Of a DNA stretch of 16,811 bases, positions 3 to 16,811 are shown one piece after another. The position numbers were made by a program, and so were the translations under genes. Numbering within the stretch: the first letter of the stretch is position 1; each line of letters starts with the position of its first letter. The notes under the pieces are model-generated. The model saw only the letters and a program-made list of their open reading frames with translations. It searched no databases and was not told the DNA's origin. This stretch comes from a bacterium. GTDB taxonomy: Bacteria; Blakebacterota; Blakebacteria; Blakebacterales; Blakebacteraceae. The stretch lies in assembly GCA_025774615.1 (NCBI GenBank), contig JALGVQ010000039.1:1-16811 (forward strand), given 5' to 3'.

Positions 3-92
3 TCGCGGATATTCGCGGAGCGGTGTGACCATCTGAAAATGGAGCCGCCCGGAGATGGCTGGGACGGCGTCTGGACCATGACCACGAAGTAA
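3..92 (+). CDS. C-terminal tail of an unidentified upstream gene (partial)
   Basis: An open frame enters from the window edge and ends at TAA 90-92, giving about 29 residues that finish in GWDGVWTMTTK. The TAA shares its last base with an ATG at 92, and the next gene has a clear ribosome binding site right after it, so this looks like the 3' end of the preceding operon gene. The tail is too short for me to assign a family. It is kept as a coding tail because the frame is open and abuts the next gene in the manner of the other operon junctions here. Confidence 0.5.
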   Translation, partial: SRIFAERCDHLKMEPPGDGWDGVWTMTTK

Positions 93-106
93 TGCTGAAA
101 GCTACC

Positions 107-113
107 AAGGAGG
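107..113 (+). promoter_or_regulatory. Ribosome binding site deciding the start at 119
   Basis: AAGGAGG lies 5 nt before ATG 119. It decides against the longer in-frame ATG at 92, which has no such motif upstream. Confidence 0.75.
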
Positions 114-118
114 ACGGC

Positions 119-973
119 ATGAAGCCGTTACGCCCGATTATATCAATATTGTTCACCGGACTGCTTCTGATCCCGGTTTTCGGGACACAGGCACAGACGC
201 CGGAAGAGGATTATCCTGAACCTGGCGCGTTCATCATCGACTGGGAACGCCAGGTAGTCATCACTCACAGTCTCGGTGCGCCGAATACCAGTTTTCCCCA
301 GCCGGCCTGGAGGTCTTCCGCCTTGAGGGCGGCCAGGCAGGCAGCGTACCGGGATCTCCTGGAGGCGGTAAAGGGAGTCACGGTTTCATCGACGACAACC
401 GTCGAGAACGCCATGGTCACCAGCGACATCATCAGGTCGAGCGTGGATGGAGTCGTTAAGGACTTCAGGGTGCTCGACACGAGATACTTCGAGAGCATGG
501 ATGTCGGACTCATTGTGGAGATGCCGCTCACCGGAGCCCTCTACGACGCCGTTATGCCGGGTAACACGGGTGGCCGGATCGCGGATGCTCCCGCTCCCGG
601 GACACCACCCCCCCCAAGAGCGACCGGTGCGATCAGCGGACTGGTGGTGGACGCGACCGGGCTCGATGTCACACCTGCCATGGCCCCGAAGATCCTCGAT
701 GAAGAGGGCAACGAGGTATACGGCACCACGAAAGTACTGCGGCAGTTCGCCATGCAGCAGGGAGTCGTGGGGTACCACAACAATGTCGCCGGAGCCAGTG
801 GGGATGAGCGGGTTGCCGGCAACCCCCTTGTTGTTCGGGCGCTTCGCGCGACCGGTCCGAACGGGTGTGATCTGATCATCTCGACAGCTGATGCCGGTCG
901 GATCCGCTCGGCGGCGGAAAACCTCGCTTTCCTGGATGAATGCCGTGTCATGATCGTGCTCGGAGCCGAGTAG
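119..973 (+). CDS. LPP20-type exported envelope protein
   Basis: The protein is 284 residues. It begins with a Sec signal peptide (residues 1-26, basic start, hydrophobic core, cleavage probably after QAQ) with no lipobox cysteine. Residues about 35-150 resemble the LPP20/FlgT-N type of fold: a run of A/R-rich helix (ALRAARQAAYRDLLEAVKGV), then a Thr/Ser-rich 'TVSSTTTVEN' strand, then 'SSVDGVVKDFRVLDTRYF'. A proline-rich linker (about 155-168) leads to a second domain ending in 'CRVMIVLGAE', a layout I associate with LPP20-family proteins of unknown role. The start at 119 is chosen over 92 because of the AAGGAGG motif. An 8-C tract (608-615) encodes part of the Pro linker. It heads a co-directional envelope operon and probably acts in the periplasm. 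Its molecular function is not known; the family call is from motif recognition only. Confidence 0.75.
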   Translation: MKPLRPIISILFTGLLLIPVFGTQAQTPEEDYPEPGAFIIDWERQVVITHSLGAPNTSFPQPAWRSSALRAARQAAYRDLLEAVKGVTVSSTTTVENAMVTSDIIRSSVDGVVKDFRVLDTRYFESMDVGLIVEMPLTGALYDAVMPGNTGGRIADAPAPGTPPPPRATGAISGLVVDATGLDVTPAMAPKILDEEGNEVYGTTKVLRQFAMQQGVVGYHNNVAGASGDERVAGNPLVVRALRATGPNGCDLIISTADAGRIRSAAENLAFLDECRVMIVLGAE

Positions 974-1013
974 TGTCAGGGCACTAATAGTGAACCGGAA
1001 TATCCAGATGTGT

Positions 1014-1020
1014 AAAGGAG
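1014..1020 (+). promoter_or_regulatory. Ribosome binding site of the TPR-SLH lipoprotein gene
   Basis: AAAGGAG is placed 7 nt before ATG 1028, in the 54-nt gap after the preceding stop. Confidence 0.7.
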
Positions 1021-1027
1021 CGGCAAG

Positions 1028-2146
1028 ATGAAGCCGATAAAGACGATTCTCCCGGTCTCGGCGGCCATCGTTCTGACGGTCGTGCTTGCTTCCTGTGCGG
1101 GCAAGTACTCCCAGCAGTCGGTGCTCGATACGCCGGAAGCGCACTACCAGGCGGGTATCGAATTCCTCGCACGGGGACAGGTCGCAGAAGCGCGGCATGA
1201 ATTTGATTACGCGATCGGTCTCGACCGGGATTTTGCCCCCGGATATGAAGGTCTCGGACTCTGCGCGCTCGAAGAGGGCGACGGCGCCGGCGCTGAGCGG
1301 GAGTTCAAGCGCTCTATCGACAAGGAACGGGATTATGTACCTGCCCATGTCGGACTCGGGCGGGCGTATGTCATGCAGGGACAGCATAGCCGCGGCATCC
1401 GTTCCTTTGAGGATGCTATCGAGATCGACCCGAAATACGCACCTGCGTATGAATATCTCGGCCAGACACACGTTGAGATCAGAGATTTCGACGCCGCGGT
1501 AGATGCTTACCGGCGCGGGATCAACGAGATTCCGACGAACACCGGTCTGAACGATGGCTGGCAGCGGGTCAGCGAAATACAGCGGGCTACCCTGGGGGTG
1601 CCTGACGAGTACAAGGAGATCGCCCTCAGTGCGGCAGTGAGCCGGGCAGAGCTGGCGGTTCTTCTGAACTCAGAGCTCGATCTGCAGGAGATCTTCGTGG
1701 GTCGGCAGACGCCGCAGGCACGTACCTTTGCCCCACCGGGTCAGCAGAACGTGGAAGCAGGACGGATCGCGGCACCCACCGATGTCATGGGCGACCACTG
1801 GGCCAGGCAGCACATCGAGAAGTGTGTCCTGCTCGGTGCGATAGACCTGATGCCCGACGGCAGTTTCAGGCCGAATCAGGTTGTCACCAGGGTGGATCTG
1901 GCCATGCTGGTCCAGCGGGTCCTGGTAGAGGCATGGGACGACGCGAGCCTCAAATCCCGGTTCTTCGGCAGTGTCAGTCCCTTCCCGGACGTACCCGGAA
2001 CTCACTTTGCCTTCAACGCGGTCATGCTCGCCACGACACGCGGCATTATGACCGGCAAGCCGGATGGAACATTCTTCCTCGAGGGCACCCTCCCGGGTCA
2101 TGAGGCGATCCTCATCATCCGCAATCTGAAGGGGGTGCTGGAATAG
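1028..2146 (+). CDS. TPR and SLH domain lipoprotein
   Basis: The protein is 372 residues. A lipobox L20-A21-S22-C23 follows a hydrophobic stretch, so it is predicted to be lipidated at C23; Ala at +2 fits outer-membrane retention in E. coli-like sorting. Four consecutive 34-residue tetratricopeptide units cover about residues 35-170, each with the A/G-Y...LG...A...F..AI pattern. The C-terminal half has SLH (surface-layer homology) modules: a partial one near 200-217 and two fuller ones near 250-300 ('MPDGSFRPNQVVTRVDLAM') and 317-372 ('GKPDGTFFLEGTLPGHEA'). SLH domains bind cell-wall-linked polymers, and TPRs bind protein partners. A lipoprotein with both could tether an envelope complex between outer membrane and peptidoglycan; that is inference. 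The stop TAG (2144-2146) shares its G with the next gene's GTG start, indicating coupling. Confidence 0.88.
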   Translation: MKPIKTILPVSAAIVLTVVLASCAGKYSQQSVLDTPEAHYQAGIEFLARGQVAEARHEFDYAIGLDRDFAPGYEGLGLCALEEGDGAGAEREFKRSIDKERDYVPAHVGLGRAYVMQGQHSRGIRSFEDAIEIDPKYAPAYEYLGQTHVEIRDFDAAVDAYRRGINEIPTNTGLNDGWQRVSEIQRATLGVPDEYKEIALSAAVSRAELAVLLNSELDLQEIFVGRQTPQARTFAPPGQQNVEAGRIAAPTDVMGDHWARQHIEKCVLLGAIDLMPDGSFRPNQVVTRVDLAMLVQRVLVEAWDDASLKSRFFGSVSPFPDVPGTHFAFNAVMLATTRGIMTGKPDGTFFLEGTLPGHEAILIIRNLKGVLE

Positions 2147-3357
2147 TGTCCAGATACCAATACTTGAAAGCGGCCGCGATACTGGTTCTGGCTCTCGGAC
2201 TCATTCTGCCGGCATCACTTTTTGCGCAGGATGTGCCCCAGGAGGGCAGGGTAGTGACTGTCCAGGGGCGCGGAGCCATCATCGCGGGTGACAAGGTGAA
2301 AGCGCGCGATGACGCGGTCAACGACGCGCAGCGGAACGCCGTGGAGCGGGTCATGGGCACGCACGTGGAGAGCTCCACGATCACCGAGAACTTCATGCTT
2401 ATCCAGGACAACATCTACACCAAAACCAGCGGATACATCTCGAATTACGAGGTGACGAACGAGACCGAGGATCCTGACATGATCACCGTCACCGTTCGTG
2501 CCACGGTGAAGGAGTCAGAGCTTGTCTCAGACCTCGAGGCGATCGGGGTCCTGATGTCCCGGATGAATTACCCTCGTCTGCTGGTCCTGATAGATGAGCA
2601 GATATTCATCGACGAGGGGGGTGAGGAGCGGGTCCCGACCACAGTCGACAACGCGGCCACCACTACCGCCTTCATGGAGATGCTTCAGGCGAAGGGATTC
2701 CGGTTCGTCGATCCCATGACGGTGGCGATGAACACCCAGGCCAACATGCTGCAGTCGGCTCTTGAAGGGGATGTTGCCCAGGCGGTCATGATCGGACGGG
2801 CCCATCAGGCCGAGGTGATTGTGCTCGGCACGACGATCGCCAAGCGCGGCACCGCCGCCCAGCAGATGCTCGGTGGGATGGTCAGCATGCAGGTCTCAAT
2901 CACGGTGCGGGTACTGAGATCCGACACCGGTGAGATCATGGCCACCTCCCAGGAAACCGGCGTGCATTTAGGCGGAAGCCCGATCGACGCCTCGGCCGGC
3001 GCCATCAAGAAGGCGATGGACAAGTTGGGGCCGCGGCTCGAGGAAATGATCCTGGAGCGCTGGAACCAGGAGGTCACCGGCAGTCGCGTGATCGAGCTGC
3101 ACATCGTGAACCAGATAGGGTTCATGCCGCTGCAGCAGTTCCGCCAGCTCATTCCCTTCTATGTCCGTGGTGTGCAGGAAGTAACCCAGAAGAGTTTCCT
3201 CGAGGGTCTGGCGATCCTGGAGGTGCGCTCTGAAGGGGATGCCATGGCTCTGGCCACCGAACTCTCCGCGAAGGAGTGGGCGGAGTTCACCATCGAAGTC
3301 ACGGGGGTAACCGCGAACCAGGTCAGGATCCGGGTGACTCCAAAGGGATTCCGGTGA
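2146..3357 (+). CDS. FlgT-N-type exported protein (LPP20/CsgG-like fold)
   Basis: The protein is 403 residues, starting at a GTG that overlaps the previous stop (TAGTG), with GAAGGGGG about 10 nt upstream. A Sec signal peptide (1-28, ending LFAQ) has no lipobox. Residues about 32-125 match the FlgT N-terminal pattern: 'VTVQGRGAII', a helix rich in A/R/D ('ARDDAVNDAQRNAVERVMG'), 'VESSTITENFMLIQDNIYTK', then 'SGYISNYEV'. A middle domain (about 125-300) contains 'AEVIVLGTTIA' and 'VSITVRVLRSDTGEI', similar to CsgG/TolB-N-like domains. A C-terminal domain (about 310-403) looks like another alpha/beta module. In Vibrio, FlgT forms the flagellar H ring, but no flagellar gene is present here, so the gene should not be named flgT. 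It probably works with the LPP20- and CsgG-like neighbours in a periplasmic assembly. Confidence 0.8.
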   Translation: MSRYQYLKAAAILVLALGLILPASLFAQDVPQEGRVVTVQGRGAIIAGDKVKARDDAVNDAQRNAVERVMGTHVESSTITENFMLIQDNIYTKTSGYISNYEVTNETEDPDMITVTVRATVKESELVSDLEAIGVLMSRMNYPRLLVLIDEQIFIDEGGEERVPTTVDNAATTTAFMEMLQAKGFRFVDPMTVAMNTQANMLQSALEGDVAQAVMIGRAHQAEVIVLGTTIAKRGTAAQQMLGGMVSMQVSITVRVLRSDTGEIMATSQETGVHLGGSPIDASAGAIKKAMDKLGPRLEEMILERWNQEVTGSRVIELHIVNQIGFMPLQQFRQLIPFYVRGVQEVTQKSFLEGLAILEVRSEGDAMALATELSAKEWAEFTIEVTGVTANQVRIRVTPKGFR

Positions 3358-4187
3358 ACCACCTGGTCCGGGTGAACGGGAGGCGACTCAGCCGGCGTGT
3401 TCTGCGCTCCATTCCCATATCTGCCGTTCTGCTGCTCGGCACCGCGGTGATCGTCTTCAGTCAGGCGTGGGTGCTGGCAAAGGTGAGCTTCTACCTGGGT
3501 GAAGTTGGCTACAGGAAAGCCCAGAGTGAGGAGTGGACAGGAGTAGCTCTTCAGCAGTCTCTCTTTTCCGGCGATGCGGTCAAGACGGGGGCTGAATCGA
3601 GACTCGAGCTGAAGACCGGTGACGAAGGATTCGTCATGCGGATCGATGAAAACACTGAACTGGAACTCTCTCCCCAGAGCCTTGAGAACCCCGGCACGAA
3701 AGCAAAGGCCAGAGGAGGGCGGGTATGGACGAACGTCCGCCGGATGGCCGCGAACCGGAACAATCTCACCATCGAAACCCCGACGGTGCTGGCCGCGGTA
3801 CGGGGTACGGTCTTCCGGATCGATGTGCCTGATGTCAACAATACCATTCTCCGAGTGTATGAGGGAGAGGTTGAGGTACAACCAAACCTGGCGCCCCCAC
3901 CCGGTGAGGGGGGCGTGCGGGAAGTGGACGCGCCCCGTGAGATAGCTCCACCCAGGGAGGTCTCTGCCCAGCAGTGGATGGAGATCGTCTCGGCGAACCA
4001 GCAGCTCAGTTTCACCCGCGGCGAGAAACCGGTGATAACCGATTTCGATCCTGAAGCCGACGCTCAGCTCGACTGGGTGCAGTGGAACAGGGAGCGGGAT
4101 GCAGCACTGGACCGCTCCGACGTGCCGCCGCCGGATGAGAGTAAGAAGAATCAGAAGGACAGAAGGAAAAACCGTAAGAAGGATTAG
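3354..4187 (+). CDS. Membrane-anchored FecR-domain protein
   Basis: The predicted protein is 277 residues from GTG 3354. It overlaps the preceding stop by 4 nt (GTGA), with AAAGGGA 5 nt upstream; a longer frame open from 3276 would overlap the previous gene deeply and has no such signal. A basic N-terminus and one hydrophobic segment (about 19-42) form a signal anchor. Residues about 44-175 are a FecR-type beta domain with the hallmarks 'SGDAVKTGAESRLEL', 'ENTELELSP', 'GGRVWTNVRR', 'IETPTVLAAVRGTVFRI' and 'VYEGEVEV'. The end is strongly basic (KKNQKDRRKNRKKD). Classic FecR is an anti-sigma sensor, but I see no N-terminal anti-sigma motif and no sigma factor beside it. This is more like the stand-alone FecR domains found in envelope proteins. 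The role is unknown; the operon position suggests part of the same complex. Confidence 0.85.
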   Translation: MNHLVRVNGRRLSRRVLRSIPISAVLLLGTAVIVFSQAWVLAKVSFYLGEVGYRKAQSEEWTGVALQQSLFSGDAVKTGAESRLELKTGDEGFVMRIDENTELELSPQSLENPGTKAKARGGRVWTNVRRMAANRNNLTIETPTVLAAVRGTVFRIDVPDVNNTILRVYEGEVEVQPNLAPPPGEGGVREVDAPREIAPPREVSAQQWMEIVSANQQLSFTRGEKPVITDFDPEADAQLDWVQWNRERDAALDRSDVPPPDESKKNQKDRRKNRKKD

Positions 4188-4202
4188 AAAACGGAAGCAG
4201 GG

Positions 4203-5090
4203 ATGATGTCTTCAAGACGGTTGCCGAGCTGGAAACGGTGGATTGGTATCGCCACTGCTGTACTCATGCTGACGCTTTCGGTGGGGCCCTCGCTGGCGCT
4301 TGCCGCTGCGGCCCACACCGATCGAATGGAGTCTCAACCCCGGCAGCAGCAACAGCAGCAGGAACAACTCACCATCGGTGTCATTGATCTGGAAGCCAAT
4401 GGAGTCGAGGAAACTGAGGCAAAGGCAATCACCGAACGGCTCCGCATCTATCTGGGACGCACCGGCATCTTCGAGGTGATCGAGCGGAACCAGATGGAAT
4501 CGATCATGACCGAGATGGGGTTCCAGGCAAGCGGTGCCTGCAACACCGACGAGTGCGTGGTCCAGGTCGGCCAGGTTCTGGGCGCAAGCAAGATGGTGGC
4601 CGGCAGTGTCTCCAAGGTAGGTAACCTCTACTCCCTGCAGATCCGGATGGTGGATATCACCACGTCGCGGATAGAGAATCCACTCTTCGTGGATGTCAAC
4701 GGAATAGAACAGGTACTCCTGACCGCAACCCAGGACATAGCCAACGATCTGGCGGGGCTCGTCCGCCAGCAGTTGGGTGTCCCCTTCGAGCCGATCTCAC
4801 CCGAGGAACAGGCCCGTCAACAGGAGCAGATCGACCCTCAGACTGATCCTGCCCGCCAGCAGGAAGACCCCGTGACTCCTCCGGTCACCGGGGAGCAGCC
4901 AGGGGGAGAGGAAGAGCAACTCGGCACACAGCGACCACGAAAGAGATTCCCCTGGTGGATTTTCCTTTTGGGTGCCGCTGGCGGAGGTACTGCTTATCTT
5001 CTCAGTGGTGATGATCCCGGTACAGGAGGAACAACAGGACCGGGAACAATCGGAGCGCCGCCCGACAGGCCGACGATTCCGCCGAGATAA
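4203..5090 (+). CDS. CsgG-like protein with C-terminal membrane helix
   Basis: The protein is 295 residues (ATG 4203; the adjacent ATG 4206 is equally possible). A signal sequence or anchor covers about 10-37, with no lipobox. A Q6 run (48-53) is followed by a CsgG/TolB-N-like domain at about 56-190: 'LTIGVIDLEANGV', 'LGRTGIFEVIERNQ', 'LGASKMVAGSVSKVG', 'YSLQIRMVDI'. A cysteine pair C113-x4-C118 (ACNTDEC) sits in the middle. A Q/P/E-rich linker leads to RPRKR and one hydrophobic helix (about 248-268), then a Gly/Pro-rich tail. True CsgG is a lipoprotein pore in curli secretion; lacking a lipobox and carrying a C-terminal helix, this is a relative and not CsgG itself. It has a close paralogue in the gene at 7692. 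It starts 15 nt after the FecR gene, in the same operon. Confidence 0.82.
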   Translation: MMSSRRLPSWKRWIGIATAVLMLTLSVGPSLALAAAAHTDRMESQPRQQQQQQEQLTIGVIDLEANGVEETEAKAITERLRIYLGRTGIFEVIERNQMESIMTEMGFQASGACNTDECVVQVGQVLGASKMVAGSVSKVGNLYSLQIRMVDITTSRIENPLFVDVNGIEQVLLTATQDIANDLAGLVRQQLGVPFEPISPEEQARQQEQIDPQTDPARQQEDPVTPPVTGEQPGGEEEQLGTQRPRKRFPWWIFLLGAAGGGTAYLLSGDDPGTGGTTGPGTIGAPPDRPTIPPR

Positions 5091-7691: not shown

Positions 7692-9152
7692 ATGATTCCC
7701 GGCTCTCGCCGACATATCTCACTTCCATCCAGGTCGTTCTTTGCGGGTCTGCTTGCGTTTTTCCTGAGCATGTCCGGATTCAATCAGGTTTTGGCTGAAG
7801 TCAGTCAGCAGGAACAGGAGCTATTGACGGTCGGTGTCATCGACCTGGATGTGAATAATGTCGATGAGGGAGAAGCCAGAGCGGTCTCGGAACGTCTCCG
7901 TATCTGGCTGGGACGGACCGGGGTATTCCAGGTAATCGAGCGGAACCAGATGGACACCATCATGGAGGAGCTGGGATTCCAGTACAGCGGGGCGTGCAAC
8001 ACTGATGAGTGCATCGTCCAGGTCGGCCAGATGCTTGGTGCGACAAAAATGGTCGCCGGCAGCATCTCAAAAGTCGGCACACTCTATTCTCTACAGATCC
8101 GCATCGTCGATATCACCTCATCACGGATCGAGCACACTTCATTCCGGGATGAACCGGGAGGCATGGAAAGTGTGCTCATGGAGGCAACCAGGGCAGTCGC
8201 CGACGAGCTGGCAGATTTCGTTCGCGGTACGTCCGCCTGGCCTCCAGTCGATCCTGTACAACCTGTAACACCAGCCACCGCGCAGATCACGATCGAGTCA
8301 ACACCGTCCGGTGCGACGATCATCATCGACAATCAGAATACCAGTCAGGTTACTCCGGCATCCTTTCCGCTCACGGCCGGCACCCACGATCTGACTTTGC
8401 GGTTGGCAGGTTACACTGAGAATTCTCAATCTTTCCCGGTTGTTGGCGGGCAGGACAGAACCATCAATACCTCGCTGACTGAGATATATGTTGGATCGGC
8501 CCAGCTTACCATCCGGAACTCACTGCTCGGCGCGACCCTGAAGGTGACGGGCGATGAGGAGAGAGACACCGCTCTGAACAACCCTGATGTAGCCGTGGAT
8601 CTCCCCCCCGGCCATTTCCTCCTGCGGGTCCGCGCTCCCGGATATGCGAAATGGAGTCAGGAAGTCGATCTCGAAGATGGTGACAGCAGCGTCATTCCCG
8701 TGAACCTCGTACCGAGATCGAGATTCACCGCGGGAATCCTGGCATTGATCCCCGGCGTCGGCCATTTCTACGCCAACAGGCCGGGCAAGGGAGTTCTCAT
8801 GCTTGTGGCAACCGCCGGATCGATCGTGTACGGCGCGAGTCAATTCGGGAACTATACGACTGAAAGAGACGAATACGACCAGCTGGTGACCGCCTACCGG
8901 GCCGCGACGACTTACCAGCAGTTGACTGCCATCAAGACCGAGATGGACGCCAAACACGTAGAGGTGCAGGAGACTCACGAAAAACTGGGTACGGTAGTCG
9001 GGATCATCGGTGGAGTCTGGCTTTTCAATATCATCGATGCGTCTCTCCTGATGCCGAGACTGAGACGTGCCTCCGGCAGTCTGCCGGTGCCGGACATCGA
9101 TCTGAACACCCGGAACGGTCGCCTCACCCTCTCACTGCGGGTGAATTTCTGA
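7692..9152 (+). CDS. CsgG-like protein fused to PEGA domains and a hydrophobic C-terminus
   Basis: The protein is 486 residues. A signal sequence (about 14-35, ending VLA) has no lipobox. A CsgG/TolB-N-like domain at about 45-178 is nearly the same as that of the gene at 4203 (79 of 103 aligned residues by hand) and keeps the cysteine pair, here C102 and C107. A PEGA domain follows at about 197-265 ('ITIESTPSGATIIID', 'AGTHDLTLRLAGY'), then a second PEGA-like module at about 271-342 ('LPPGHFLLRVRAPGY'). The C-terminus has hydrophobic segments at about 345-380 ('ALIPGVGHFYANRPGKG', reminiscent of DUF5683/TM2-like helices) and about 425-446. PEGA domains are surface or envelope beta modules. 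The start is not well supported by a Shine-Dalgarno: GGAAAGGG (7665-7672) is 19 nt away. The next gene starts 1 nt after its stop. Confidence 0.85.
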   Translation: MIPGSRRHISLPSRSFFAGLLAFFLSMSGFNQVLAEVSQQEQELLTVGVIDLDVNNVDEGEARAVSERLRIWLGRTGVFQVIERNQMDTIMEELGFQYSGACNTDECIVQVGQMLGATKMVAGSISKVGTLYSLQIRIVDITSSRIEHTSFRDEPGGMESVLMEATRAVADELADFVRGTSAWPPVDPVQPVTPATAQITIESTPSGATIIIDNQNTSQVTPASFPLTAGTHDLTLRLAGYTENSQSFPVVGGQDRTINTSLTEIYVGSAQLTIRNSLLGATLKVTGDEERDTALNNPDVAVDLPPGHFLLRVRAPGYAKWSQEVDLEDGDSSVIPVNLVPRSRFTAGILALIPGVGHFYANRPGKGVLMLVATAGSIVYGASQFGNYTTERDEYDQLVTAYRAATTYQQLTAIKTEMDAKHVEVQETHEKLGTVVGIIGGVWLFNIIDASLLMPRLRRASGSLPVPDIDLNTRNGRLTLSLRVNF

Positions 9153-9153
9153 G

Positions 9154-10062
9154 ATGGCACGGATGTCAGAGAAGAAGCCGCTTAATCTCCACTTCCTGAA
9201 GGGGAGAGGGTTCTCTTATTATCTGGCTGCCCTGGTTCTTGCCTTCTCAGTTCTGTTCCTCCCGGCCTGTGATTCACTGGTTTCGAACATCACAGAGCCC
9301 CCGATCGATCCACCGGCTGATAACCCGATCGATCCCGATCCTGATAATCCGAGCTTTGTGCCACCCAATTCGACCATTCTCACGCCATCCGAAGGTTCCA
9401 CCCATAGCACAGCCAATGTCACGATCACGTGGGAGGGGAACACCGGCGTGGTCGCATTCCAGAGCAGGGTTGATGATGGCGGCTGGTCGACCTGGTCGGA
9501 TCTGACTTCGAAGACCTTCGGTCCTCTTGATGAGGGAACGCACTCCGTTCACATCCGGGCCGCCTACGACACTCTGGTGGCCGGGCTGATCGAAGATACC
9601 CCAACCAATATCAACTTCACGATCGATGCGGTGCAGGGGGCTTCGCTGCGGTTCAGTCCTCCCTACCTCGAGGGTGGGACGACTGGTGATATCGCCCTGA
9701 GTCTGGTCGCCGAGGATGTGACCAATCTCATGATGGTGAAGGCGGTCTTCACCTTCGATCCGAATGTGATCACCCTGAATACGTGGGATGAGTCGAGTTT
9801 TCTGACCGGCAACGGAGGTTCGATCCTCTCGTACTACGATATCGACAATGTCGCAGGCCGCTGTGAGATCAATCTCTCAGTGGTAGATGGTGACCCGGAT
9901 GGAGTAACCGGCACTGGTACCCTTATCAACCTCACTTTCAGCGGCACAGCGGTTGGCCTGTCATCACTTGCCTTCGTCAGCGTTGAGACCGAGATGCGTG
10001 ATCCCTCCAACCTGCCTCTGACGATCATTAACCTGGTCGGGGCACAGGTGAGGGTACGGTGA
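9154..10062 (+). CDS. Lipoprotein with a cohesin-like domain
   Basis: The protein is 302 residues from ATG 9154 (ATG 9163 is an alternative). A hydrophobic segment ends in a lipobox-like LPAC, so it is probably a lipoprotein. A Pro/Asp-rich spacer ('ITEPPIDPPADNPIDPDPDNP') follows. Residues about 70-155 form an Ig/fibronectin-like beta domain ('TILTPSEGSTHSTANVTITW', 'SRVDDGGWSTW', 'EGTHSVHIRA'). Residues about 163-302 resemble a cohesin domain: 'TGDIALSLVAEDVTNL', 'VKAVFTFDPNVITL', 'GTGTLINLTFSG'. Cohesins bind dockerins in cellulosomes, but cohesin-like domains are widespread outside them. The gene is coupled to both neighbours: 1 nt after the preceding stop, and its TGA overlaps the protease ATG. 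The membrane-attached beta domains could hold the secreted protease at the surface (inference). Confidence 0.78.
   Translation: MARMSEKKPLNLHFLKGRGFSYYLAALVLAFSVLFLPACDSLVSNITEPPIDPPADNPIDPDPDNPSFVPPNSTILTPSEGSTHSTANVTITWEGNTGVVAFQSRVDDGGWSTWSDLTSKTFGPLDEGTHSVHIRAAYDTLVAGLIEDTPTNINFTIDAVQGASLRFSPPYLEGGTTGDIALSLVAEDVTNLMMVKAVFTFDPNVITLNTWDESSFLTGNGGSILSYYDIDNVAGRCEINLSVVDGDPDGVTGTGTLINLTFSGTAVGLSSLAFVSVETEMRDPSNLPLTIINLVGAQVRVR
10050..10054 (+). promoter_or_regulatory. Ribosome binding site of the protease gene
   Basis: GAGGG, inside the end of the lipoprotein gene, is 7 nt before ATG 10062. This favours ATG 10062 over GTG 10059. The start overlaps the stop of the preceding gene (TGATG). Confidence 0.55.
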
Positions 10063-13000
10063 TGGACAGGCGGATGAAGCAGCTGAAGCAAGCAGGTCTC
10101 AGGATGCAAGGCCGACTGGGTACAGCACTGCTCAGCATCCTGACCAGTGCCATGCTGCTACTCCCGAATCTGGCGCTGGCTCAGGGTAGCGATTCCGGGA
10201 CTAATCGGCTCGACCCGATCCTGCGGCTGGCGCTCAATCGCAGTGTTCAGATGCAGGAGGCCCGGGCTCGCGGTGAAGAGATCCCTCTGCTCGACCGCAA
10301 TATGGGGGTCATGGCTGCTCCAGCAGGGCTCGAGGTATGGGTGGAATTGATCGTGAAGGGTTCGGGAGCGGAAGCGGCGGTACGGGCTGCAGGAGGTACC
10401 GTCGGCAGCCGCCAGGGCCGGATCATCACCGCCCGGGTGCCATTGAGCTCCATTACCACCCTGGCGGAATCACCAGGCGTTGAGTACGTCGAAGCCTCGA
10501 CCGAGAACACCATTGCCATGGACGCCGGGCTCGATTCGATCGGCGCCGACGTTCTGCACAGCGGCGCCTACAACTACCGCGGCAGTGGCGTGCTGGTGGC
10601 AGTGTACGATACCGGGCTGGATTACTCCCATGACGACTTCCGCAACGGCGACGGCACGACCCGGGTGCTGTCCATGTGGGACCAGACCAACGGCAGCGGT
10701 ACCCCCCCGAGCGGCTATGGCTACGGCTCGGCCTGGTCTGAGGCCCAGCTCAATGATGAGCTCGATGGTTTTCCGGCCGGTCTGGTGACTCAACTCGACA
10801 TCAACGGCCATGGCACCCACGTGATGGGGATCGCCGCCGGGAACGGACGGGCCACCGGCAACGGCCAGCCTGACAGTGTTTACGTCGGCGTGGCTCCGGC
10901 GGCTGACCTGCTGGTGATCAAGGGGGGTGACGGCAGTTTCTCGAGCGCCAGCATCATCGATGGTATCGCCTGGACCTTCGCGAAGGCCGATGCCCTCGCC
11001 CAGCCTTGCGTGCTGAACCTCAGCCTGGGCGGGCACAGCGGCCCCCATGACGGCACCATGCTCTATGAAGAAGCGATCGATATTGCCTCAGGAACCGGTA
11101 AGGTAATTGTCGTCTCAGCCGGGAACGAGGGAAGTGACGCCCTGCACGACCGAACCCCGCTCTCCGCGGGGGCTCCGGCCGATTCCTTCAGCTTCACAAT
11201 CCCCAGCTATACGCCCAATGCCGGAACCAGCAACGATTATTTCCTCTGCAATATCTGGTATGAGGGTGCAACCACCGTCTCGGTTTCACTGAAGAACCCC
11301 TACGGTGTTGTCCACGGACCGGTGGCCACAGGCGGTACCTACGAAGCCGTTCCCACCTGGGGGACCATCGATATCGACAACGCCAGCGGCGGCGTTGATG
11401 CCCGCAACGGGGATTACCAGTGCATCATCCAGGTCTTCGACCAGTGGGAAGGTCTGGAGCCGATACCGGGCACCTGGACCATCATCTACCACCTCGACAG
11501 CGGGGCTTCCACCCCGGCCGACATGTGGTTCTACGGTAACACCTTCGGAGCCTCTGTCGATGTACCTACATCCTACCGCAGCGCTGCCCACCCCGGCACG
11601 GCCAATGATGCTCTCACGGTCGGGGCTTGGGTCTCGAAGTGGGGCTGGGACGCCCTCGACAGTGGCAGTTACACCTACACCGGCACCGACCGGACCAGTG
11701 ATTACGCCCTCTTCACGAGCTGGGGTCCTTCCCGGGATGGGCGACAGAAGCCCGAGATCGTCGCCCCCGGCCAGGGAATCATGTCGGCCATGTCCTTCCA
11801 CATGACCCCGCCGATCGACCCGTGGCGCGACCCCGACGGGGTCCACCGCATCTCCCAGGGAACCAGCCAGGCTGCTCCAGTCGTGACCGGTACGGTCGCC
11901 CTGCTGCTTGAGATCGATGAGACCCTCAATGTTGCCGATGTGAAAACACTTTTGCAGGACAACGCCAGGACCGACAGCTATACGGGAAGCGTTCCGAACG
12001 AAACCTGGGGATACGGCAAGCTGGACGCCCTGGCAGCGGCCGATGATCTGCTCTCAATATTGAATCCCCCCCTGATCGCGATTTATCAACCGACGGGTGT
12101 TCAGACCGGTGATATCACAATTCCTTATCTGGTCACCGATCCGGACAATTCGGAGATCGGGATCCTGGCCGAGTATTCAACCAGCAGCGGCACGTTCTGG
12201 CTGGCTGCCTCAGTCGGCGGTGATACGTCAGGTATCGCCGCGGCTGATTACGACTCCAGTCTGGTCTGGCAATCGGGGAGCGATCTTGCCGGCCAAGAGC
12301 ATTCCAATGTCTGGTTCAGAATTACTCCGCATGATGCAGGTGGATGGGGTACTTCTGATACCACCCTTATCGACATCGACAACCTTGCTCCACAGTGGAT
12401 CGCAGCCGAAGGAACAAGCGGAGATTCTACTCTCACCTTCTGGTTCAATGAACTGGTAGCCGATTCATCGGCTACGGATACATCCAATGTTTCATTATCT
12501 GGAGGACTGACTGCAGGAAGCATTACTGGCATTGACCACGATGTCTGGTCAACCAAAGCATCCATATCCGGTACCAGACATGCTCCTGAAGCAGGGGTCA
12601 TTGACGGTAAGCTCTACGTTGCAGGCGGAAATGACGGAAACAACCTCAACATTCTGGAAGTATATGATCCATCTACAGACAGCTGGACGACAAAGGCCTC
12701 CATGCCGACCAGCCGGTGGGTAGCACAAGCAGGAGTTATTGATGGATTACTCTATGTGGCTGGCGGAGGTGATGACGCGGGGGCATCAACCGCGTTAGAA
12801 GTATACGATCCATCCACAGATTCATGGACTACCAGGACCCCTATGCCCTTCGGCATATCAGTGGGAGTCGCCGGTGTGATCGACGGTAAGCTCTATGTAG
12901 CGTCTGTTGAAGGGACGTTGATGTATGACCCTTCAACGGATGATTGGCAGACAAAGGCCAGCAAACTCGGCTTTAGAAGCGGCCGTGCCGGTGGAGTGAT

Positions 13001-16000
13001 CGACGGCAAACTCTATATCGTTGCCGATGGTGATGGTTCGGTGGAGTCATATCTGGACATATATGACCCCTCCACAGACAGCTGGACGACGGGGCCCTCA
13101 GCACCTACTCCCAGACAAAGAGCAACCGCAGGAGTAATTGCCGGAAAACTCTATGTTGTGGGTGGAGACAATGATATCGGGGCGGTGAACACGCTGGAAG
13201 TATACGATCCTGCAACGAACGAATGGACAACAGAGACCTCCATCCCCACCGATAGAACCTTCCCGGCAGCAGGAGTTATTGATAACGAGCTCTATATTAT
13301 AGCTGGAGGAGGTGAGCTTATAGTAGAGGTCTACACTGCTCTACCTTCCCGCTTTGAGTTGACTCTGTCCAGTGGACAGAAGCTGTCCTCAACTGAACCT
13401 TCCGTCACACTGACAGCAACCAGCATCACAGACCTCAATGGTAATACAGCTGCTTCGCTTGACACGACCTTTGCACCTGCCGACCTGAACCGGCCGAGCA
13501 TCGGAGTATATCAACCCACGGGAACCCAGATCGGTGATGTCACTCTTCCATATGTCATTTCCGATCCCGAAGGCGGTCCAGTTGGACTGCTTGCGGAATA
13601 CTCGGTAGATGCCGGTACGACCTGGCTCGCAGCTACAATAACAGGCGATACCTCAGATATTGAACCGGCTGACTTTGACAGCAGCCTGGTCTGGCATAGC
13701 GTAACTGATCTGGCGGATCAGGAAGTAGCCGGAGTACGATTCCGGATCACTCCGCACGATCAAGGTGGTTCGGGTTCCGCCTCTATTACCCACATCGATA
13801 TAGACAACCAGTATCCGCAATGGATCGAAGCCGAAGGGACGAGCGGAGATTCTACTCTCACATTCTGGTTCGATGAGTTAGTAGCAGACTCTTCGGCTAC
13901 AGAGGTGACCAACTTCTCCCTCTCAGGGGGATTGACTGTCGGAAGCATCATTGGCAGCGATCATGATGTCTGGACCACAAAGGCCTCAGCGCCAACCAGC
14001 AGACTTCATGCTGCGGCTGACGTTATAGACGGTAAGCTCTATGTTGTGGGAGGCAATGGAGCTTTAAGTACGCTTGAAGTATACGACCCGTCATCCGACA
14101 GCTGGACAACAATGTCATCCATGCCAGCAGGAAGAGCGTTATTAGCGGCAGGAGTCATTGACGGCAAGCTTTACGCTGCAGGTGGATCCATCAATTGGGC
14201 AATACCCTGGCTTGAAGTATACGATCCGTCCACAGACAGTTGGACGGCAAAGGCCCCCATGCTCACTGCCAGACATGGAGCTGTAGGAGGCGTAATAAAC
14301 GGGCGGTTTTATGTTGCTGGTGGGCAAGATGGGTCAGATCTGCTGGAGGTATACGATCCCGTTACGGACAGCTGGGCATCAAAGACTTCCATACCCACAG
14401 GCAGGTGGCTAGCTGTAGCAGGAGTGATCGAGGGGAAACTCTACGTAGCCGGTGGTGGCAGCAGTGACGGGACAGACCTGGCTACGCTTGAAGTATATGA
14501 CCCATTGACAGACAGCTGGACGACGAAAGCTCCCATGCCCACGGCCAGATCGGATGCTGCAGCAGGAGTAATCGATGGGAAACTATATGTTGCTGGCGGG
14601 AATCTCAGCGGGGATCAACTGAACACTCTTGAAGTATACGATCCCGCAACAGACAGCTGGACTGTAAAATCCTACATGCTGGGGGTCAGACCCTGGATAA
14701 CAGCAGGAGAAATCGACGGAAAACTCTACATAGCAGGGATTTGGACTGGAAGTCTGGAGGTATACACTGCCATCCCATCCCGTTTTGAGCTGACCTTGTC
14801 CAGCGGTCAAACCCTCTCGTCGGCCGAACCTCCGGTTACATTGACAGCTACAAATATCATGGATCTTCACAGCAATGTTGCCACATCCCTTGATACGACC
14901 TTCGCACCATCGGATCCAAACCGGCCGGGTGTCACCCTCTGGCAACCAGGTGGGATCAAGAGTGGTGACATCATTGTTCCCTACACTATTTCTGACGCTG
15001 AAGGCAGTGACATCGGATTGCTGGCCGAATACTCGACAGACGGTGGATCGACCTGGCTGGCGGCATCTGTCAGTGGTGATACCTCCGGAATCGCGCTGGC
15101 CGATTTCGATTCGAGCCTGGTCTGGCTGAGCAGCTCGAATCTTGTGGATCAGGATCTGACCTATGGTGTCCAGTTCCGTCTCACACCGCATGATCCCGGG
15201 GGATGGGGTACGGCCGACATAACCCTGATTGATATCGACAACCTGGCCCCACAGGGATTCTCAGCTTCAGGTACCGCCGGTAACTCCACCATCACGTTCT
15301 GGTTCGATGAACTGGCGGATGAAGACACGGCGACCAACACCTCCAACTTCTCCCTCACCAGTGGACTGACGGTCGGGAGCATCGTCGGACGTGGTGCTGA
15401 TGAATGGTCCGTCCTGTCACCGATGCCCTCAAGGAGAGATCATGCTGTAGCGGGGGTTATGAACGGGAAACTCTATGTCGCGGGAGGTGAAGATTCGGGC
15501 AACAATTACACCTCCACCCTCTATGAATACGATCCATCAACCGGTGCCTGGGTAACGAAGACCTCCATGCCCACGGCGAGAGGTTGGGCGGTCGCCGGGG
15601 TGATCGACGGAAAACTCTATGTTGCAGGTGGCGCCAATCTGACAGGCCCAATGAGCAAACTGGAAGTGTACGATCCCTCGACCAATGCATGGACGACAAA
15701 GACCTCTATGCCCACCTCTTTCGTGCATTCAGCTGCGGGTGTCATAGACGGCAAACTCTATGTTGCGGGGAATCAGGACGGGGCGTCGCAGCCTCTGGGT
15801 GATGTCATAGTATACGATCCCTCTGCCGACAGCTGGTCAACTCTGGCTTCAATGCTCACCGCCCGGAAACATGCAGTCGCTGGAGTCCTTGACGGGAAGC
15901 TGTACGTAACGGGAGGAATGACTACCGGTGATGTCTACTCGAGCGCCCTGGAAGCATACGATCCCTCGACCGATAGTTGGACAACCCTGGCACCTGTCCC

Positions 16001-16520
16001 CACCACCCGGAATAATGCTGCTGCAGCTGTTATTGATGGCCAGTTCTACGTGGTTGGGGGATTCAACGATTCCGGGCCTGTGGCCGAGATGGAAGTATAC
16101 GATCCTGCCGCAAATAACTGGACACCACAAACCCCGATGCCGAACCAGGATGCCCATTCGGTAGCCGCCGGCATTGACGGAGTATTCTATCTTGCTGGTG
16201 GTCAGAGCAACGATGGTATCACCTTTGAAGCATACACGGTCCTGCCTCCCCGATTCGAACTGGCGCTGACCAGCGGGCAAGCGCTTCCCGACAGTTCCAC
16301 TTCGGTCACACTCACCGCTTCGAACATCTCTGATATCTACGGCAACACGATCGCTACTGCGCTCGACACCACGTTCAAGCCGTACTTCTACGACCCCACT
16401 CGTCCGGAGATATCCATCTATGGGCCCTCGGAGACCCAGGGCGGCGACATCACGCGATCTCGGCGCTATGTGGCTGCTGGCTTCGGTCAGTGGAGATACC
16501 TCGAACATCCTCAGCGCTGA
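10062..16520 (+). CDS. Giant secreted subtilisin-family (S8) protease with nested Ig/kelch repeats; 3' end frame-broken
   Basis: The ORF encodes 2152 residues. A Sec signal peptide (about 1-41, ending LALA) precedes an I9-like prodomain (about 86-150). The S8 domain (about 175-665) has an intact triad: D183 (VYDTGLD), H250 (NGHGTHVMG), S602 (SQGTSQAAP), and oxyanion Asn N355 (SAGNEG). N355 and S602 are 247 residues apart (66 in subtilisin), so a beta-rich insertion of about 180 residues lies between them. Then come three tandem units (670-1144, 1145-1621, 1622-2114). Each has an Ig-like domain, followed by a second Ig-like (Big_5-type) domain interrupted by six kelch motifs. A fourth unit starts at 2115, but the frame breaks near 16455 and the ORF ends after about 20 unrelated residues; unit-4 homology resumes in another frame. 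The natural C-terminus therefore lies beyond the window. It is probably an extracellular or surface protease. Confidence 0.9.
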   Translation: MDRRMKQLKQAGLRMQGRLGTALLSILTSAMLLLPNLALAQGSDSGTNRLDPILRLALNRSVQMQEARARGEEIPLLDRNMGVMAAPAGLEVWVELIVKGSGAEAAVRAAGGTVGSRQGRIITARVPLSSITTLAESPGVEYVEASTENTIAMDAGLDSIGADVLHSGAYNYRGSGVLVAVYDTGLDYSHDDFRNGDGTTRVLSMWDQTNGSGTPPSGYGYGSAWSEAQLNDELDGFPAGLVTQLDINGHGTHVMGIAAGNGRATGNGQPDSVYVGVAPAADLLVIKGGDGSFSSASIIDGIAWTFAKADALAQPCVLNLSLGGHSGPHDGTMLYEEAIDIASGTGKVIVVSAGNEGSDALHDRTPLSAGAPADSFSFTIPSYTPNAGTSNDYFLCNIWYEGATTVSVSLKNPYGVVHGPVATGGTYEAVPTWGTIDIDNASGGVDARNGDYQCIIQVFDQWEGLEPIPGTWTIIYHLDSGASTPADMWFYGNTFGASVDVPTSYRSAAHPGTANDALTVGAWVSKWGWDALDSGSYTYTGTDRTSDYALFTSWGPSRDGRQKPEIVAPGQGIMSAMSFHMTPPIDPWRDPDGVHRISQGTSQAAPVVTGTVALLLEIDETLNVADVKTLLQDNARTDSYTGSVPNETWGYGKLDALAAADDLLSILNPPLIAIYQPTGVQTGDITIPYLVTDPDNSEIGILAEYSTSSGTFWLAASVGGDTSGIAAADYDSSLVWQSGSDLAGQEHSNVWFRITPHDAGGWGTSDTTLIDIDNLAPQWIAAEGTSGDSTLTFWFNELVADSSATDTSNVSLSGGLTAGSITGIDHDVWSTKASISGTRHAPEAGVIDGKLYVAGGNDGNNLNILEVYDPSTDSWTTKASMPTSRWVAQAGVIDGLLYVAGGGDDAGASTALEVYDPSTDSWTTRTPMPFGISVGVAGVIDGKLYVASVEGTLMYDPSTDDWQTKASKLGFRSGRAGGVIDGKLYIVADGDGSVESYLDIYDPSTDSWTTGPSAPTPRQRATAGVIAGKLYVVGGDNDIGAVNTLEVYDPATNEWTTETSIPTDRTFPAAGVIDNELYIIAGGGELIVEVYTALPSRFELTLSSGQKLSSTEPSVTLTATSITDLNGNTAASLDTTFAPADLNRPSIGVYQPTGTQIGDVTLPYVISDPEGGPVGLLAEYSVDAGTTWLAATITGDTSDIEPADFDSSLVWHSVTDLADQEVAGVRFRITPHDQGGSGSASITHIDIDNQYPQWIEAEGTSGDSTLTFWFDELVADSSATEVTNFSLSGGLTVGSIIGSDHDVWTTKASAPTSRLHAAADVIDGKLYVVGGNGALSTLEVYDPSSDSWTTMSSMPAGRALLAAGVIDGKLYAAGGSINWAIPWLEVYDPSTDSWTAKAPMLTARHGAVGGVINGRFYVAGGQDGSDLLEVYDPVTDSWASKTSIPTGRWLAVAGVIEGKLYVAGGGSSDGTDLATLEVYDPLTDSWTTKAPMPTARSDAAAGVIDGKLYVAGGNLSGDQLNTLEVYDPATDSWTVKSYMLGVRPWITAGEIDGKLYIAGIWTGSLEVYTAIPSRFELTLSSGQTLSSAEPPVTLTATNIMDLHSNVATSLDTTFAPSDPNRPGVTLWQPGGIKSGDIIVPYTISDAEGSDIGLLAEYSTDGGSTWLAASVSGDTSGIALADFDSSLVWLSSSNLVDQDLTYGVQFRLTPHDPGGWGTADITLIDIDNLAPQGFSASGTAGNSTITFWFDELADEDTATNTSNFSLTSGLTVGSIVGRGADEWSVLSPMPSRRDHAVAGVMNGKLYVAGGEDSGNNYTSTLYEYDPSTGAWVTKTSMPTARGWAVAGVIDGKLYVAGGANLTGPMSKLEVYDPSTNAWTTKTSMPTSFVHSAAGVIDGKLYVAGNQDGASQPLGDVIVYDPSADSWSTLASMLTARKHAVAGVLDGKLYVTGGMTTGDVYSSALEAYDPSTDSWTTLAPVPTTRNNAAAAVIDGQFYVVGGFNDSGPVAEMEVYDPAANNWTPQTPMPNQDAHSVAAGIDGVFYLAGGQSNDGITFEAYTVLPPRFELALTSGQALPDSSTSVTLTASNISDIYGNTIATALDTTFKPYFYDPTRPEISIYGPSETQGGDITRSRRYVAAGFGQWRYLEHPQR
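12069..13493 (+). repeat. Tandem protein-coding unit 1 (Ig-like + kelch-in-Ig), 1425 nt
   Basis: The unit starts with an Ig-like domain ('IAIYQPTGVQTGDIT', 'WFRITPHDAGGWG', 'IDIDNLAPQ'). A second Ig-like half-domain follows ('STLTFWFNELVADSS'), then a kelch propeller, then the closing half ('SRFELTLSSGQKLSS', 'ITDLNGNTAASLDTTFAP'). It shares a perfect 20-nt match with unit 2 (12417-12436 versus 13842-13861, offset exactly one unit length). Confidence 0.85.
12534..13337 (+). repeat. Six-bladed kelch propeller 1
   Basis: Six kelch motifs of the form GVIDGKLYVAGG...LEVYDPSTDSWTTKASMP can be counted. The third and fourth lack the double glycine (VASVEG, IVADGDG). The starting strand (DVWSTKAS) and the ending strand (EVYT) can complete one blade, as in normal propeller closure. 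Confidence 0.85.
13494..14924 (+). repeat. Tandem protein-coding unit 2 (Ig-like + kelch-in-Ig), 1431 nt
   Basis: It has the same order as unit 1: 'IGVYQPTGTQIGDVT', 'FRITPHDQGGSG', 'STLTFWFDELVADSS', kelch block, 'SRFELTLSSGQTLSS', 'IMDLHSNVATSLDTTFAP'. It is the closest copy to unit 1 at nucleotide level in the Ig-like parts. Confidence 0.85.
13959..14768 (+). repeat. Six-bladed kelch propeller 2
   Basis: Six kelch motifs can be counted (DVIDGKLYVVGG through GEIDGKLYIAGI). Closing strands DVWTTKAS and LEVYT are at the same positions as in propeller 1. Confidence 0.85.
14925..16403 (+). repeat. Tandem protein-coding unit 3 (Ig-like + kelch-in-Ig), 1479 nt
   Basis: It has the same order as units 1 and 2 ('VTLWQPGGIKSGDII', 'FRLTPHDPGGWG', 'STITFWFDELADEDT', kelch block, 'PRFELALTSGQALPD', 'ISDIYGNTIATALDTTF'). 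It is more diverged and somewhat longer in the kelch block. Confidence 0.85.
15396..16238 (+). repeat. Six-bladed kelch propeller 3
   Basis: Six kelch motifs can be counted (GVMNGKLYVAGG through AGIDGVFYLAGG). Opening strand DEWSVLSP and closing strand FEAYT replace DVWTTKAS and EVYT of the other propellers. Confidence 0.85.
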
Positions 16521-16811
16521 TTACGACAACAGCTTGGTCTGGCAGAGTGGTACCGACCTGCTGAGTCAGGTGGTCGACGACGCCTGGTTGCGGATCACCC
16601 CGCATGATGCAGGTGGTTGGGGGAAAGCCGACACGATCACGGTCGATATTGATAACCTGGCTCCACAGTCGATCGGTGCCCGGGCTGTTGCCGGGAGCGA
16701 CTCTTTCGAGTTCTGGTTCGACGAGCCGGTCGTGGATGCCCGGGCGATGAACACCGGCAATATCATGATCACCGGCCTGACGATCGACTCGATCGAGAAG
16801 GTGCCTAACTG
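16404..16811 (+). repeat. Unit 4 of the Ig-like repeat, frame-broken and cut by the window end
   Basis: It begins in the protease frame ('PEISIYGPSETQGGDIT') and continues from about 16471 in the +1 frame ('WLLASVSGDTSN', 'WLRITPHDAGGWG', 'IDNLAPQ', 'FEFWFDEPVVD'). Between T of GDIT and the conserved W there are 16 nt, where units 1-3 each have 78 nt, a net loss of 62 nt. Confidence 0.8.
16468..16811 (+). CDS. Out-of-frame continuation of the protease repeat region (partial, open at window end)
   Basis: This frame is open to the window end and encodes Ig-like repeat sequence homologous to units 1-3 ('ADYDNSLVWQSGTDL', 'WLRITPHDAGGWG', 'IDNLAPQ', 'FEFWFDEPVVD'). An ATG at 16468 is in frame but lies inside a domain, with no Shine-Dalgarno, so it is not a credible natural start. 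I read it as the remainder of the same protein after a frame break, whether a real mutation or an assembly error. The window ends at 'LTIDSIEKVPN', which aligns with the point where the kelch propeller is inserted in the other units. Whether a fourth propeller follows is therefore unknown. Confidence 0.7.
   Translation, partial: MWLLASVSGDTSNILSADYDNSLVWQSGTDLLSQVVDDAWLRITPHDAGGWGKADTITVDIDNLAPQSIGARAVAGSDSFEFWFDEPVVDARAMNTGNIMITGLTIDSIEKVPN

Follow-up and report, generated by a model that had tools for sequence, protein, structure and literature searches.

The window, meaning the whole stretch of 16,811 nucleotides analysed here, is the complete contig C314 of a draft genome (3.3 Mb, 324 contigs) of a bacterium related to Latescibacterota. 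Its features relevant to this analysis are listed below.

7692 to 9152, plus strand: conserved neighbour gene with a CsgG-like N part and PEGA domains
9154 to 10062, plus strand: conserved neighbour gene encoding a lipoprotein, cohesin-like by eye
10059 to 16520, plus strand: gene for the S8 protease and its array of Ig-kelch composites (2153 aa in this assembly)
10581 to 12017, plus strand: Peptidase_S8 catalytic domain (profile match, triad motifs)
12069 to 12392, plus strand: unit 1, Ig-like spacer preceding the Big_5 domain (residues 671-778)
12390 to 12539, plus strand: unit 1, Big_5 N half
12540 to 13340, plus strand: unit 1, six-bladed kelch propeller
13341 to 13493, plus strand: unit 1, Big_5 C half
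13494 to 13817, plus strand: unit 2, Ig-like spacer (residues 1146-1253)
13815 to 13964, plus strand: unit 2, Big_5 N half
13965 to 14771, plus strand: unit 2, six-bladed kelch propeller (the one modelled by AF2)
14772 to 14924, plus strand: unit 2, Big_5 C half
14925 to 15251, plus strand: unit 3, Ig-like spacer (residues 1623-1731)
15249 to 15398, plus strand: unit 3, Big_5 N half
15399 to 16241, plus strand: unit 3, six-bladed kelch propeller
16242 to 16403, plus strand: unit 3, Big_5 C half
16404 to 16811, plus strand: beginning of unit 4, interrupted near 16450 by a loss of about 26 residues and a frameshift, and cut short by the contig end at 16811

From its N-terminus, the long protein consists of a signal-like stretch, a prodomain, a Peptidase_S8 domain and three tandem units. 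Peptidase_S8 (PF00082) is recognised at 123.4 bits (cut-off 21.8), and the triad residues D184, H251 and S603 lie in the canonical motifs DTG, HGTH and GTSQA, which are intact; an insertion of approximately 130 residues is located midway through the domain. The units (12069-13493, 13494-14924 and 14925-16403; residues 671-1145, 1146-1622 and 1623-2115) share a single open frame and are 56-61 % identical to one another. Each comprises an Ig-like spacer of approximately 105 residues, for which the Pfam search returned no match in units 1-3, a Big_5 N half of approximately 50 residues, six kelch blades (approximately 270 residues) and a Big_5 C half of approximately 50 residues. The preliminary description of this DNA had presented the repeat as an Ig half, a full set of six kelch motifs and a second Ig half, amplified three times in one protease. 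This order stands, as do the common junction in all three units and the number of blades (exactly six blade cores were counted per complete unit), but the true repeat also contains the spacer before each N half, unit 3 departs from the consensus that had been quoted (STITFWFDELADEDTA; RFELALTSGQALPDSS; DEW; EAYT), and the three complete units in one frame are followed by the beginning of a fourth. The spacer and Ig N half of unit 4 can be read in a different frame (16441-16794, E 4e-40), and the deletion and frameshift near 16450 may represent real damage or an assembly fault at the repeat.

Relatives of the composite protein were compared among four genomes of the phylum. The search for homologues with the same nesting, proposed with the preliminary description, found them at the same locus in G001 (contig C453), with three copies of the composite, one of which is cut by the contig end, and in G002 (contig C404), with one complete copy. 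The order of a CsgG/PEGA gene, a lipoprotein gene and the composite gene is common to the window, G001 and G002; the CsgG/PEGA and lipoprotein neighbours in the window are 35 and 36 % identical to those of G002, respectively, and the lipoprotein, which has no Pfam match, is 36 % identical to that of G001. The head of the composite protein differs between these genomes: the window has an S8 protease; in G001 a signal peptide leads directly into the first Ig half, without any protease; and G002 carries an additional kelch propeller in place of the protease. The design had been introduced as that of an S8 protease, which is true of the window protein but not of its syntenic orthologues; because the heads differ at the same locus, the array rather than the protease is its conserved part. 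In the regions 92-5090 and 7692-9152 of the window, two CsgG-like genes are clustered with TPR/SLH-like, FecR-like and LPP20/FlgT-like genes (by eye), which suggests an envelope or surface-assembly locus. A scan of GTDB r220 with the single strict Ig pattern TFWF[ND]E[LSP][VA] returned nothing beyond the two known relatives, a scan of viral contigs with unit 1 returned no relatives, and no description of the design was found in the open literature searched, a body of text that leaves out most subscription journals.

The kelch character of the propellers is evident from both motifs and modelled structure. In the Pfam search, Kelch_1 (PF01344) matched the protein strongly, with 505 bits (E 8e-156) over 14 stretches, and counting of blade cores gave six blades in each of the six complete units from two genera. 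The propeller of unit 2, as modelled by AF2, closes into a six-bladed ring that superposes on Keap1 with an rmsd of 1.1 Å over 251 residues and on NS1-BP with Z 39.3 and an rmsd of 1.5 Å over 264 residues, these structure matches (VIA-align and Foldseek) covering the propeller only and not the sandwich part. The blades thus close into complete rings, as the preliminary description had assumed. The likeness to Keap1, KLHL3 and NS1-BP lies in the six blades (rmsd 1.1-1.5 Å over 250-264 residues); in contrast to these proteins, the window propellers are bacterial, belong to a protein with a signal peptide and are enclosed in another domain rather than being chain-terminal. Among blades, variation is greatest in the b-c loop and at the blade start, whereas the core is kept. 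A DxW strand begins the propeller and the last blade is truncated; judging from the sequence and from general knowledge of kelch topology, this N-terminal strand would supply the outer strand of blade 6 and close it, so that the ends of the propeller would exit side by side.

The central claim of the preliminary description was that the propeller is grafted into a loop of a beta sandwich whose two parts are the flanking Ig halves. To address the integrity of the host domain, the kelch part was excised in silico and the halves were joined in six units. The joined halves matched the Big_5 profile (PF13205, gathering score 23.6) at positions 16-103 in a single run, and two of the six exceeded the gathering score (unit 1 of the window, 26.9, and unit a of G001, 26.4), with scores of 15.5-22.5 for the four others. 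Single halves (two N and two C halves tested) yielded no Big_5 match, and in the intact protein only a Big_5 C half was recognised, with a score of 18.6 that is below the cut-off; the gathering score was therefore exceeded only once the kelch part had been removed. A match of the Ig N half to a phage holin (18.6-20.2 bits, cut-off 26) was dismissed as chance.

Homologues of the host domain that lack the insert at the same site were recovered by profile search, MAFFT alignment and profile-profile comparison. Outside the family, 16 genomes supplied approximately 20 Big_5 domains without an interruption, which align straight through the junction of a profile built from the joined halves, whereas the copies within the family break near position 48 of the 96 profile positions, at the junction. 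Profile-profile comparison of the joined halves with the uninterrupted domains gave a probability of 98.6 % and E 1.4e-15 over 83 columns, and in an unforced MAFFT alignment 19 of 19 uninterrupted domains were split into approximately 50 and 41 residues, with the propeller left as a gap. The window's own genome yielded no uninterrupted copy of the host domain when searched. Big_5 matched 14 of 15 uninterrupted homologues. A profile search of the PDB with the joined halves alone found no match, but the uninterrupted domains as query reached SbsB (E 1e-9) and SbsC. With Big_5 and these S-layer Ig domains (PDB 4aq1, 2ra1) the host domain shares the strand order and the motifs FxE, sAtn..NysL..GLt and D..GN on both sides of the junction, and differs from them by carrying a kelch ring of approximately 270 residues in the hairpin between strands 4 and 5.

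Structure prediction is consistent with this arrangement. In a first AF2 run of unit 2, based on the six nested rows only, the propeller was confident and the Ig halves remained mostly below a pLDDT of about 65. In a second run, to which the uninterrupted domains were added, the mean pLDDT reached 93.0 and the pTM 0.82, although the confident sandwich depends on the uninterrupted-domain alignment and this run is not fully independent of it. High-confidence strands were assigned to both Big_5 halves, within positions 6-50 and 325-365 (four before and three after the kelch part at 54-320), and these are predicted to form one sandwich. The alternative that the Ig halves are separate small elements, with propellers strung serially between partial Ig-like linkers, could draw on the low confidence of the halves in the first run and on the serial Ig-kelch or FN3-kelch arrays that are common in other genomes (L144, L145, L147), but it is highly improbable, given that uninterrupted homologues cross the junction, that Big_5 is recognised in joined halves but in none of the single halves tested, and that a deeper alignment folds the halves at high confidence. 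Sequence and prediction together point to the halves being one domain, and we are highly confident that the architecture is that of a kelch propeller nested in a Big_5 Ig domain.

The history of the array is less clear. The Ig halves are 56-82 % identical between the units of the window, whereas its blades are no more alike at the same ring position than at different positions (0.546 vs 0.545 over three units; the corresponding values in G001 are 0.465 and 0.399), and trees of the Ig and kelch parts disagree weakly. Duplication of the whole composite, as previously put forward, thus fits the Ig halves but is not proven, because the blades lack positional identity; its record may have been erased by blade turnover or homogenisation. 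The identity of the Ig halves, the same order and junction, and the occurrence of the composite in the relatives indicate that grafting took place before the two genera arose. We propose that the graft arose before their split, that the N-terminal module at the locus was exchanged (a protease, nothing or another propeller), and that copy number would change through tandem duplication followed by blade turnover.

A kelch propeller nested in an Ig-like domain also occurs in another lineage. Among 57 propellers from other genomes whose flanks were read, L139 alone was clearly nested, most others being located at the chain start or alternating with whole domains. In L139 (G291:C44), a 1992-residue open reading frame from an unrelated lineage, a six-bladed kelch propeller is nested in an Ig-like repeat, as in the window protein, but the Ig family and the junction are different and there is a single copy. 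A profile of uninterrupted copies of this repeat (81 positions) places the N half at 3-40 and the C half at 41-81, and one uninterrupted copy lies directly upstream of the nested one in the same protein. The L139 nesting is an independent graft. Propellers of the Vibrio cholerae sialidase type also nest beta sandwich and propeller, with the order reversed relative to the window, since there the propeller hosts an inserted lectin-like domain (PMC2716378). Two long open reading frames (L144 and L145; G357:C167 and C7) contain whole Ig-like domains in serial alternation with six-bladed kelch propellers, several copies each. The Ig-like spacer is also found apart from kelch, repeated in tandem up to 16 times, in other genomes (L108, G123:C106; L109, G260:C201).

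With respect to export, type IX sorting tails and SprA are present in the genome. A subtilase paralogue (G000:C64, L059), 50 % identical to the window protease over the prodomain and catalytic domain, has a type IX tail at its end but, unlike the window protein, no kelch array. In the window protein itself, which is cut off by the contig end within unit 4, neither an export tail nor an anchor is seen. Besides the paralogue, a G003 protein that shares the spacer domain carries a type IX tail. In this G003 protein (L043/L058, G003:C173:2-1327), the spacer domain is followed by a dockerin-like stretch (by eye) and then the tail; it may be the C-terminal end of an orthologue. The tails and SprA in the genome, together with the tail on the paralogue, make type IX surface display of the window protein likely, and on this comparison it is probably a surface protein secreted by the type IX system.

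Taken as a whole, these observations are best explained by a surface subtilase with a rod of units, each holding a propeller in its Big_5 hairpin, the propellers binding substrate or matrix, and we regard this explanation as likely. The protein would be secreted and probably remain at the cell surface, exported and anchored through the type IX system, with the rod formed by Ig spacers and Ig sandwiches. In each unit, a complete six-bladed propeller would occupy the hairpin between strands 4 and 5 of the S-layer-type sandwich; because its entry and exit points coincide on one face, it would fit this loop without opening the sandwich. The propellers would project sideways, with their variable b-c and d-a loops facing outward, and, next to the protease, the array could bind substrate, matrix or molecules of neighbouring cells at several sites. 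The concentration of variation in the b-c loop and the blade start is, as read from sequence, the pattern that a binding face would be expected to show. Feeding substrate to the protease is not the whole role of the array, because one relative has the array without the protease. For the predicted function, in which a surface protease displays binding propellers laterally along an array, our confidence is evenly balanced.

One possible alternative, which we consider less probable, is that the array has no binding role and serves as a stalk or spacer distancing the protease from the cell, with kelch filler spread by recombination. Such a role would agree with blades that have no positional memory, with the variation of copy number and N-terminal module between relatives, and with the fact that no ligand is known for the array, but it is at odds with rings kept complete at six blades in all complete units of both genera, with variation that is greatest in the loops and spares the core, and with retention of the array in a relative that lacks the protease. 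That the propellers are instead enzymes beside the protease (e.g. galactose-oxidase-like or mutarotase-like) is very unlikely, as the partial NCBIfam matches to GlxA (68.6 bits, curated cut-off 800), YjhT/epimerase (NanM; 122.8 bits, cut-off 416) and mutarotase (141 bits, cut-off 243) are far under their cut-offs and are explained by shared kelch motifs. Moreover, Keap1 is the nearest match of the ring, which has six blades against the seven of galactose oxidase.

The preferred reading, in which binding propellers are displayed from a rod, has a wider and more tentative extension, namely that kelch propellers may recur as modules inserted into the Ig domains of bacterial surface proteins, because their termini meet at one point on one face. 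Different lineages would have independently made lateral arrays, and the locus in this phylum would swap its enzymatic head and keep the array as a changeable recognition device. The protein described here is a clean natural case in which an entire beta-propeller has been grafted into an Ig sandwich, and it is accompanied by the empty site, by relatives in two genera and by a second case of independent origin. It suggests that the architecture of large proteins can evolve via grafting and not end-to-end fusion, and it provides a natural template for showing propellers sideways from a rod.
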